Origin: Methylobacter sp.
Lineage (GTDB): Bacteria; Pseudomonadota; Gammaproteobacteria; Methylococcales; Methylomonadaceae
DNA: 41,374 nt
Direction: 5' to 3'
Assembly: GCA_025361585.1 (NCBI GenBank)
Contig: JANYKK010000351.1
Span: forward strand, 1-41,374
The position numbers and the translations under genes are program-made. Each line of letters starts with the position of its first letter. The first letter of the stretch is position 1. Below are positions 19,115 to 24,774 of this stretch, piece after piece. The notes beneath the pieces were generated by a model. The model saw only the letters and a program-made list of their open reading frames with translations. It was not told the origin of the DNA and did not search any database.

Positions 19115-20148
19115 TTGCATGAGCCGATGCCCCAACATTTCTTACTCTCAGCCAAAGCCCGAACCCTTTCAGTCCGCAAAGTCATGGAACTGACTGACGA
19201 TCAGGCTTTCCATGTCTTTAAGGAAATGCGCTGGGGGGATGGTGAGGACGTGGCTTGCCCGGTGTGCGGCGTAATCGGTCAGCACTACTTCCAGCGCACT
19301 CGTAAGCAATGGCGCTGCAAGGACTGCAAACATACGTTCTCGGTGACTTCCGGCACGATCTTCGCCTTTCACAAGCTGCCATTAAAGGTGTACCTGGGCG
19401 CTATTGCCATCTATTCCAATGCGGTAAAGGCATTTCAGCTTTGCAACTGGCTCGTGATCTTGGCGTTCAATATAAAACCGCTTTCGTGCTGTCGCATAAG
19501 ATCAGGGAATCGCTGATAGAGCATCGGGATAATGCCGCGCTGGCTGGCGAAATCCACATGGACGGTGCTTATGTTAATGGCTACATCCGTCCCAAGAACA
19601 AGAAAGAAGACCGCATAGATCGCCGTTTGGCCGAACATCAACGCCCTGATAAGCGCTGCGTATTCGTGATGCGCCAACGGATTGAAACGGCAGGAAATGA
19701 AATCAAGGGAGCCGACAAAACGCTGACTTTCATCATCAAGTCCGAGAATCAGGCCGACGTAAGCAAACTGGCTACGGACTTTGTGAAAAAAGGCTCAATG
19801 ATTTGCGCCGATGAATCCAACGCCTATGATGTGCTTCACGCCAAATTCGATACCCGCCGCGTGAACCACGCCCTGGAATACCGTAGTGATGCGGGGATCA
19901 CCAACAATCTGGCCGAATCTTACTTTTCCCGATTCCGGCGGATGCAGTACGGCCAAACACACAAGTTCGGCAATATCTATCTGGCTAACTATGCCAATGA
20001 GGCCGCTTACCGGGAAGATACCCGCAGACAGCCCAATGGTGAAATCTTTATGGATATTGTGAAGAAATGCGCCCAGACCCGGACGCATCATGACTGGTGC
20101 GGATACTGGCAGGGAAACAAGCGCCAAGCCGAGCGGCTGGCTGCTTAA
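19115..20148 (+). CDS. IS1595-family transposase in two frames (19115..19516 and 19309..20148)
   Basis: CPVCGVIGQHYFQRTRKQWRCKDCKHTFSVTSGTIF zinc ribbon; GEIHMDGAYVNGYIRP, GSMICADESNAYDVL, GITNNLAESYFSRFRRMQYGQTHKF; -1 shift at GTA-AAG-G (19424-19430) restores AVKGISALQLARDLGVQYKTAF. Confidence 0.85.
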
Positions 20149-20800: not shown

Positions 20801-21445
20801 ATGTATATACCTGCACAGTTTGAACAGCCCGATATTGAGGTCATGCACGATCTGATTCGCAACCGACCGCTTGCGACCTTGGTAACGCTCGGTGCAAACG
20901 GTATTGACGCCAATCACATTCCTTTGCATCTTGAACCGACACCCGAACCGTTCGGCGTGTTGCGCGGCCATATCGCGCGGGCAAATCCGCTCTGGCGCGA
21001 TCTTGCATCGGATGTTGAAACGCTGGCTATATTTCACGGCCCGGATGCGTATATCAGCCCGTCGTGGTACGCGACCAAACGGGAAACCGGAAAGGTAGTT
21101 CCGACTTGGAATTATGCGGTAGTTCATGCCTACGGTTCTTTGCGGATTATCGATGAGGCTGCTTGGGTTCGCACCCAGCTTGAAGCCTTAACACAGCAAA
21201 ACGAAGCCGCTTTTCCTGAGCCGTGGGCGCTGTCGGATGCGCCGGAGGACTTTACCGAAAAGCTACTTGAAGCTGTTGTCGGTATTGAAATGGTTATCAC
21301 GCGGCTAATCGGCAAGTGGAAAGTCAGTCAAAATCAACCGCCGCAAAATCAGCGTAGTGTTATCCAAGGGTTGAATGCCAGCGGTCAAAGCGGGGCGATG
21401 GCAATGGCGGCATTGGTTGATGCCGGGGTTAACAATGTTGGCTGA
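20801..21445 (+). CDS. FMN-binding negative transcriptional regulator, PaiB family
   Basis: 214 aa; MYIPAQFEQPDIEVMHDLI, LPL/HGPDAYISPSWYATKRETGKVVPTWNYAVVHAYG. Confidence 0.92.
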   Translation: MYIPAQFEQPDIEVMHDLIRNRPLATLVTLGANGIDANHIPLHLEPTPEPFGVLRGHIARANPLWRDLASDVETLAIFHGPDAYISPSWYATKRETGKVVPTWNYAVVHAYGSLRIIDEAAWVRTQLEALTQQNEAAFPEPWALSDAPEDFTEKLLEAVVGIEMVITRLIGKWKVSQNQPPQNQRSVIQGLNASGQSGAMAMAALVDAGVNNVG

Positions 21446-21987: not shown

Positions 21988-22630
21988 CTTAGATTCAACT
22001 CATAAGTGCAATCGGCACTAATCGGAAAAGAAAAAGGCTAGCTGCTATAGTCTCAAGCATTTTTCAATCCGACCAAAGACGAGAAAGCGCATGAGAAACT
22101 ATAAACAGCTAAGCCCTGCACAAAGATACCAGATTGCGATATTAAATAAAGCAGGAAAAAACCAGAAAGAGATGTTGGGCGTATCAAGATCAACGATGTG
22201 CCGTGAGCTGAGACGCAATCGAGGCAAAAAAGGATATTTCCCAAAGCAGGCGCAGATAAAAGCGGATAATCGGCGGGCACAGGCGACAAAAGCGCTAAAA
22301 ATGACCGCAGAAGTCATCGTTGAGATTGAAGAAAAAATCCGTTTGGATTGGAGCCCGGAGCAAATCGCAGGGGTGTTAAAAACCCCAATCAGTCATGAAC
22401 GCATTTATCAACATATCTGGGCCGATAAGAGTAATGGCGGCACGCTGCATAAGCATCTTCGACAAAGCAACAAAAAGCGTAAAAAGCGATACGGATCAAA
22501 AGATAAGCGCGGTCAGATTAGAAACCGTATCAGTATTGATAAACGCTCTGAAGTCGTTGCGCAAAAGACCCGTATCGGCGACTGGGAAATCGATACCGTG
22601 ATCGGTAAGAACCATCAAAGCTGTAAGGCG
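21988..22630 (+). mobile_element. truncated IS30-family element
   Basis: left end-like TTAGATTCAACTCATAAGTGCA, then IS30 transposase N-terminus; homology stops at GDWEIDTVIGKNHQ. Confidence 0.7.
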
Positions 22631-22642
22631 GATTCGCGCTAG
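22091..22642 (+). pseudogene. IS30-family transposase, C-terminus lost
   Basis: MRNYKQLSPAQRYQIAIL...SRSTMCRELRRNRG...WSPEQIAGVL...GDWEIDTVIGKNHQ then unrelated SCKADSR*. Confidence 0.85.
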
Positions 22643-22764: not shown

Positions 22765-22794
22765 CTACGAATCTACGGATATGTTAAATCCACC

Positions 22795-22866
22795 GCATCA
22801 GGAACCCCAGCGGGGTTCAAGCCGTTAGCCGGGGGTTGAGCGTAGCGACACCCCCGGATCGGATGG
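22795..22866. repeat. left arm of long inverted repeat flanking the Y1 transposase
   Basis: contains GAACCCC-AGC-GGGGTTC (22802-22818) and CCGGGGGT...ACCCCCGG (22829-22857); reverse complement recurs at 23420..23486. Confidence 0.92.
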
Positions 22867-22882
22867 CATAAACATAAAACCC

Positions 22883-22899
22883 CGACCCCAACGGGGTCG
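22883..22899. repeat. inner left hairpin CGACCCC-AAC-GGGGTCG
   Basis: perfect 7-bp stem; counterpart at 23386-23402. Confidence 0.85.
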
Positions 22900-22929
22900 C
22901 AGAGACACAACATTTAAGCGAAGTTTACC

Positions 22930-23373
22930 ATGGCATCCACCTATCTTAGTCTGCATTATCACATCGTATTTGGAACCAAAAACCGTGCTCCTGTCATCGA
23001 TGCAAAATGGAGTCCCCGGCTTTATGATTATCTCGGTGGAATTGTCCATAGACTGGGCGGGTTTTCAAAACGAATTGGCGGAATCGATGACCACGTCCAT
23101 TTGCTGGTGTTTTTAAAATCCACGCACAATCTTGCCGATCTGATGCGGGAGTTGAAGAAATCATCTTCCGCGTGGGTTCATGATACATTAGGAGAAAAGC
23201 AGTTTGCATGGCAAGAAGGTTATGCGGCTTTCACCGTTAGCGCGTCCGGGCTGGATGCTGTGGCAAGCTATATCGCCAATCAGGAACAACACCATAAAAT
23301 GAAATCGTTCCGGGATGAGTTGGTTGAAATGCTGGAAAAATCCGGTGTCGATTATAACCCGGATTATTTGTAG
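22930..23373 (+). CDS. IS200/IS605-like Y1 transposase (REP-associated, RAYT-like)
   Basis: 147 aa; SLHYHIVFGTKNRAPV, HUH motif DDHVHLLV, YIANQEQHHK tyrosine region. Confidence 0.9.
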   Translation: MASTYLSLHYHIVFGTKNRAPVIDAKWSPRLYDYLGGIVHRLGGFSKRIGGIDDHVHLLVFLKSTHNLADLMRELKKSSSAWVHDTLGEKQFAWQEGYAAFTVSASGLDAVASYIANQEQHHKMKSFRDELVEMLEKSGVDYNPDYL

Positions 23374-23385
23374 CCCGGATTACGG

Positions 23386-23402
23386 CGACCCCGCCGGGGT
23401 CG
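23386..23402. repeat. inner right hairpin CGACCCC-GCC-GGGGTCG
   Basis: perfect 7-bp stem. Confidence 0.85.
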
Positions 23403-23419
23403 ATGTTCTTTGTCACATA

Positions 23420-23486
23420 CCATCCGGGGGTGTCGCTACGCTCAACCCCCGGCTAACGGCTTGAACCCCGCTGGGGTTCTTGATGC
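23420..23486. repeat. right arm of long inverted repeat flanking the Y1 transposase
   Basis: reverse complement of 22795..22866 apart from a 4-base insertion and a few substitutions. Confidence 0.92.
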
Positions 23487-23593
23487 ATTGGGTTTGTTTC
23501 AGCTTTGGCTAAAGCGCCACTGTTAATGCCCAATCTACGCGACCATGAAAAATCGTGCAGTCCTTTACCTCTACGATATGCAATAAGGAAAAC

Positions 23594-24444: not shown

Positions 24445-24774
24445 ATGAATAAGAAAATTTTAGTGTTTATCGCGGCTTTATGCCTCGGCTTATCTGCATG
24501 TAGTGGCGAGAAGGGTAATGGAGACCTGGTTAAATCAGCTTTCATTAATAACTGTATAACTCAGGAAAGTTCCACGCGTTCTGCGGAACAGGCCAAATCT
24601 TACTGTGATTGTGCGGCTGATTCAGTGTTTAGCAATAGCAGTATTTCCGATGAAACAAAAAATCTGATGCCTACTATCAGTGATAAGGACAGTAAGATTT
24701 ATAAACAAAGTGATATTGCAACGGTCAAGGGACTGCTTATGGCCTGCTACACCAAAAAGTTTTATAAAAAATAA
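24445..24774 (+). CDS. small Cys-containing lipoprotein
   Basis: lipobox LGLSACSG; 109 aa; NNC/YCDC/ACY cysteines; AAGGAA RBS. Confidence 0.7.
   Translation: MNKKILVFIAALCLGLSACSGEKGNGDLVKSAFINNCITQESSTRSAEQAKSYCDCAADSVFSNSSISDETKNLMPTISDKDSKIYKQSDIATVKGLLMACYTKKFYKK

Follow-up and report, generated by a model that had tools for sequence, protein, structure and literature searches.

A gene for an HUH/Y1 transposase in the window (the whole stretch of 41,374 nucleotides of Methylobacter DNA that was analysed) lies between two inverted arms of three hairpins each. We consider it likely that the gene and its arms form a REPtron-like unit built on a subclass 1.2 Y1 transposase, whose enzyme would read single-stranded TAG-hairpins and which is resident, not mobile, in Methylobacter. 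The unit looks like a variant of the partnership between a Y1 enzyme and dispersed palindromes that is so far unrecognised in open-licence papers (supplements apart). The route by which a transposase turns into a resident enzyme for dispersed palindromes has so far been studied in RAYTs; a group nearer to IS200 TnpA that shares this DNA architecture would allow an independent comparison and supply a ready substrate on which the guide-hairpin model could be tried.

Arms and hairpins around the gene

The coordinates of all features are given in Table 1. The sequence-only reading had placed the Y1 gene between mutually inverted arms, each with two palindromes and an inner GACCCC/GGGGTC hairpin, and both points were borne out. 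A repeat search of the window recovered the arms, and comparison of the two gene flanks (250 nt each) gave a top inverted match of 126 bits (maximum of 200 shuffles: 22.9). All the arm hairpins were located and folded as drawn, and both arms run towards the gene from the outer hairpin through TTAG and the large hairpin to the inner hairpin. The proposed extent (22795-23486) fell slightly short of the inverted match, which runs about 9 nt further outward on each side. A second, weaker inverted pair was present further in (22872-22900 and 23385-23413). The near-symmetry of the arms is a local trait, other copies having two different outer hairpins. A search of the window against Rfam gave no match.

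Table 1. Positions of the Y1 gene, its arms and their hairpins in the window
Feature	Positions	Strand	Details
5' arm	22786..22872	+	inverted repeat with 23409-23495, 87 nt, 90% complementarity
Outer hairpin, 5' arm	22801..22818	+	GGAACCCC-AGC-GGGGTTC
REP-like core, 5' arm	22825..22857	+	TTAG foot and large hairpin CCGGGGGT..ACCCCCGG; stem covaries across genomes
Inner hairpin, 5' arm	22883..22899	+	GACCCC/GGGGTC; about 30 nt ahead of the start codon
HUH/Y1 transposase gene, 147 aa	22930..23373	+	Pfam Y1_Tnp 1.7e-23; DDHVH, YIANQEQHH
Inner hairpin, 3' arm	23386..23402	-	GACCCC/GGGGTC
3' arm	23409..23495	-	inverted repeat with 22786-22872
REP-like core, 3' arm	23424..23456	-	hairpin and CTAA (TTAG foot on the minus strand)
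Outer hairpin, 3' arm	23463..23479	-	

The Y1 protein and its class

Proteins of this superfamily were classified with the signatures of Quentin 2018, in which Y---Q--HH and WQ with a length near 148 aa mark subclass 1.2, Y[IV]ENQ marks IS200 (subclass 1.1) and Y---NP marks RAYTs (PMC6006769). The Methylobacter protein combines the catalytic motifs listed in Table 1 with WQ, and all the subclass 1.2 traits (Y---Q--HH, DH[IV]H, WQ, ~148 aa) were present; on motif, length and tree it fits TnpA-Y1 subclass 1.2. The pattern Y---Q--[HR]H was found in 69 of the 81 proteins examined (controls included), and 17 alignment columns were invariant in 28 members, among them both HUH histidines, the tyrosine, the glutamine and WQ. 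In the tree, which included four RAYTs, a branch with support 80/97 set the Y-Q-HH proteins apart from IS200 subclass 1.1 and the RAYTs, and the RAYTs formed a group of their own (support 100/100). The grouping with ordinary IS200 TnpA that the sequence-only reading had named as one outcome against it was thus not seen.

A RAYT identity was rejected for this protein, which that reading had called IS200/RAYT-like: it has Y---Q--HH instead of Y---NP, and scored 25 bits with the NCBIfam model REP_Tyr_transpos (NF047646), below the cut-off of 80 (E. coli RayT: 179). With NCBIfam transpos_IS200 it scored 64 bits (cut-off 55). An IS200/IS605 subclass 1.1 identity was also rejected, on account of WQ and Y---Q--HH in place of Y[IV]ENQ and W[TS] and of the separate position in the tree; the multiple near-identical copies characteristic of that subclass were absent, with one copy in the host's own genome (81% complete). 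A structure model of the protein (pLDDT 88) had its best E-value matches with the ISDra2 and IS608 TnpA structures and matched TnpA-REP 4er8 with an E-value of 5.5e-6. The fold comparison was rejected as a sign of a RAYT-like (cis) arrangement, because a monomer model cannot reveal domain swapping.

A conserved locus in Methylobacter

The host draft genome is 81% complete, and the nearest relatives of the gene belong to Methylobacter. The gene unit occupied the same neighbourhood in eight genomes, that of the window included, close to an FMN-binding gene (20801-21445) and a lipoprotein gene (24445-24774); in two of the eight the alignment at the locus covered no more than the first third of the lipoprotein region. 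Against the relatives that could be scored dN/dS was 0.07-0.16, and the gene is under purifying selection in Methylobacter; one copy had an in-frame stop (L037). From the conserved locus and these ratios it follows that the gene is kept in place in the genus, as a vertically retained resident, rather than jumping. No empty site for the unit was found: the lipoprotein gene of the gene-less genomes G129 and G065 has other neighbours, and these genomes therefore give no insertion boundary. Searches of phage records returned only partial, IS-type matches.

A decayed or atypical IS200/IS605 insertion sequence, with its real ends elsewhere and the arms incidental, would account for a class 1 protein that exceeds the transpos_IS200 cut-off and has ISDra2 and IS608 TnpA as its nearest solved folds by E-value. 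This explanation is very unlikely in view of the shared locus in eight Methylobacter genomes, the purifying selection, the position of the protein outside the 1.1 group and the conservation of the arms across phyla (next section).

One genome carried a second copy of the gene, 89% identical (L144, G015:C27). The outer hairpins of this copy were unlike each other, one of the GCAACCC type and one of the GGAACCCC type, a combination also seen in arms carried by MITEs.

Arms in relatives outside Methylococcales

Relatives were examined in Verrucomicrobiota, Planctomycetota, Bacteroidota, Acidobacteriota, Lentisphaerota, Balneolota, KSB1 and Geobacteraceae. Inverted arms (at least 35 bits) were found in 42 of the 56 relatives outside Methylococcales with enough flank, a set that includes two duplicates (L225 = L068, L226 = L067); the controls gave 4/168 for mismatched flank pairs and 0/168 for other places. 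The remaining 14 had no clear inverted arms. The same arm layout was present in a Bacteroidota plasmid member (L221), and a Bernardetia plasmid member (L222) had other inverted repeats, without the TAG layout. The lack of REPs reported for subclass 1.2, which does not define that subclass, is thus not borne out in these 42 relatives and L221.

Of 58 flanks, 29 had TAG directly before the hairpin; the second commonest trinucleotide reached 12, and the opposite strand gave 6. The foot, GT[AG]G in the inverted hairpins beside RAYT genes, is TTAG in the window; it was GTAG in L053, L059, L072 and L073, and varied among members as (T/A/G)TAG or CAG, with AG as its steadiest part. Across 33 distinct hairpins the stem showed 17 double-change cells, with 0/500 shuffles as high (score 0.187 versus 0.058), although a pattern was used to collect these hairpins, so that their diversity is restricted, and sequences that share ancestry can score above shuffles of this kind. 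The TAG foot beside a covarying hairpin is a REP-like architecture in the relatives.

Hairpins of this kind might instead be bidirectional terminators or translation-control hairpins that insulate the gene (compare the regulation of IS200 and ISPpu9) and have no substrate role. GC-rich hairpins do lie near both gene ends, the inner one about 30 nt before the ATG, but the TAG foot is conserved on one strand, the large stem covaries and inverted pairs are dispersed without the gene, which makes this explanation highly improbable.

Gene-less pairs in Planctomycetota and Verrucomicrobiota

The searches of relatives that the sequence-only reading had suggested recovered the arm both alone and as gene-less inverted pairs. 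Convergent gene-less pairs were present in five Planctomycetota genomes (G204, G205, G242, G247, G270) and two of Verrucomicrobiota (G211, G213), all of which also carry the Y1 gene. These distant copies, retrieved by patterns close to just two types of arm, mostly measured 155-217 bp from hairpin to hairpin; of 20 neighbouring hairpin pairs in distant genomes, 13 were convergent, 1 divergent and 6 tandem. The convergent gene-less pair that marks REPINs is thus present in distant genomes; none was seen in the host's own genome (81% complete). Up to 22 arm motifs were counted per genome, far below classical REPs. In a planctomycete family of 61 genomes, a relative of the gene was present in 7/7 genomes with the REP pattern and in 31/61 overall (p 0.006, uncorrected for relatedness). 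Several gene-less copies in G270 were near-identical over all or nearly the whole of the unit, whereas their flanks were unrelated. The enzyme plausibly serves these gene-less pairs in trans; in Planctomycetota recombination or another element may instead have dispersed them.

At L264, in G270, a gene-less unit apparently lies inside the hairpin of another arm, suggesting a nested insertion.

Arms without the gene in Methylobacter

Arm copies elsewhere in the host genome, which the sequence-only reading had looked to, were not found in the 81% of it that is available; the gene locus was the sole occurrence. The arm motif was present in 9/9 Methylobacter genomes with a gene at least 80% identical. 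Among 14 genomes without such a gene, one had two or more arms (G162, 12 copies) and another a single weak match (Fisher 1e-5, on counts that ignore relatedness).

Twelve gene-less Methylobacter pairs were inspected. The terminal inverted repeat (TIR) CTCATCGTTATACACAAGT, 19 bp long, was found with mismatches allowed at both ends in 10/12 and at one end in 2/12; most pairs were flanked by 9-10 bp direct repeats, and many sat in the loop of a GTTCCCA...TGGGAAC palindrome. The Tn5 outside end, CTGACTCTTATACACAAGT, is identical to this TIR at 15/19 positions. The TIR family occurred in 19 of 23 genomes, several without arms among them, and an autonomous 466-aa frame of the Tn5 family (PF02281) had the same TIRs and the same kind of target (G156:C55). 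None of the Methylobacter gene units L137-L144 lay between paired TIRs; L140 and L144 each had two weaker TIR matches, all on one strand, as were the TIRs of L041.

The gene-less Methylobacter arms are MITE cargo, probably moved by a DDE transposase. With IS50-type TIRs and direct repeats around them there is therefore little evidence of Y1 activity in their spread, and these pairs were rejected as a sign of Y1 mobility. They also serve as a warning that an unrelated transposon can be responsible for scattered copies. Taken further, the TIRs, the direct repeats and the autonomous PF02281 transposase would make the arms mere passengers, spread only through capture by IS50/Tn5-type MITEs. As a general explanation this is quite unlikely, since it applies just to Methylobacter and one near neighbour: no IS50 TIR (up to 5 mismatches) was found at the Planctomycetota and Verrucomicrobiota loci L202-L208 or around most of the gene-bearing units tested.

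The IS50/Tn5-like MITE family with TIR CTCATCGTTATACACAAGT was seen at L115-L124, L133 and L214 in Methylobacter relatives, with up to 146 TIR matches per genome.

Proposed working of the unit

We infer binding, cleavage and mobilisation by the Y1 enzyme as follows. The enzyme would bind the arm in single-stranded form, for instance where it lies in the lagging-strand template, take the large hairpin together with the TAG tetranucleotide at the 5' foot of that hairpin as its guide, and cleave and rejoin near the foot. Both IS200/IS605 elements and RAYTs use the tetranucleotide 5' of the hairpin to direct cleavage, and in the proposed model A3G4 selects CT and T2G4 selects CA (PMC8266576). Because AG is the steadiest part of the foot, cleavage at CT is predicted here. 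Since the arms are inverted, each strand would offer one arm in readable orientation, as in REPs and REPINs and unlike the ends of IS608; with a TAG foot 5' of the hairpin in only one arm per strand, the layout does not predict IS608-like excision through two ends on the same strand. In certain Planctomycetota and Verrucomicrobiota the enzyme would act in trans on dispersed gene-less pairs, and in Methylobacter the gene would stay resident while dispersed arms travel within IS50-type MITEs.

Relation to known systems

Of the self-contained REP/REPIN-type unit first proposed, the frame stands, being of that type and not of the IS200/IS605-end type; the protein is not a RAYT, and the gene-less Methylobacter copies proved to be MITE-borne. 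The unit resembles the REPtrons and REPINs of RAYT/TnpA-REP (Quentin class 2) in its low-copy Y1 gene, inverted REP-like hairpins (GTAG-type in theirs, TTAG-footed here) and dispersed gene-less inverted pairs, and differs in the Y---Q--HH protein, the three hairpins per arm, the (T/A/G)TAG or CAG foot and the few copies. With TnpA-Y1 subclass 1.2 as described (PMC6006769) it shares the protein signature and length, low copy number and lack of typical IS ends; Quentin 2018 gives no REP for that subclass and places it mainly in Cyanobacteria and Bacteroidetes (PMC6006769), whereas arms were found here and members occurred in Pseudomonadota, Planctomycetota, Verrucomicrobiota, Acidobacteriota and others. 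TIRtrons/TIRYT likewise have a Y1 gene between long inverted repeats, some bearing double palindromes and some dispersed (De Nocera 2013, PMC3733652), but their proteins were mapped by Quentin to subclasses 2.1, 2.2 and 2.5, and their consensus is GGGGWSAS, not a TAG-hairpin. IS200/IS605 elements (IS608, ISDra2; subclass 1.1) share the HUH/Y1 fold, Y---Q and the guide tetranucleotide 5' of the hairpin; they have same-strand guides at their ends and are mobile and multi-copy, unlike the inverted arms and fixed locus here. The IS50/Tn5-type MITEs that carry arms in Methylobacter are TIR/TSD elements expected to move by a DDE transposase, whereas the Y1 gene unit lacks paired TIRs.

Opinion is evenly balanced on a broader reading, in which subclass 1.2 would be a further REP-type system across several bacterial phyla, whose distinct arms have three hairpins and a TAG foot and whose gene-less units resemble REPINs. 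Transposases on the IS200 side of the family would then have a REPtron lifestyle, through a domestication of their own or as a link that joins IS200 to RAYTs.

Other transposase sequences in the window

Directly upstream of the 5' arm lies a short transposase fragment (22091-22642, 183 aa) that is IS30-like by eye and comprises the N-terminal HTH part only. An IS1595-type transposase extends over two overlapping frames at 19115-20148 and is probably disrupted.
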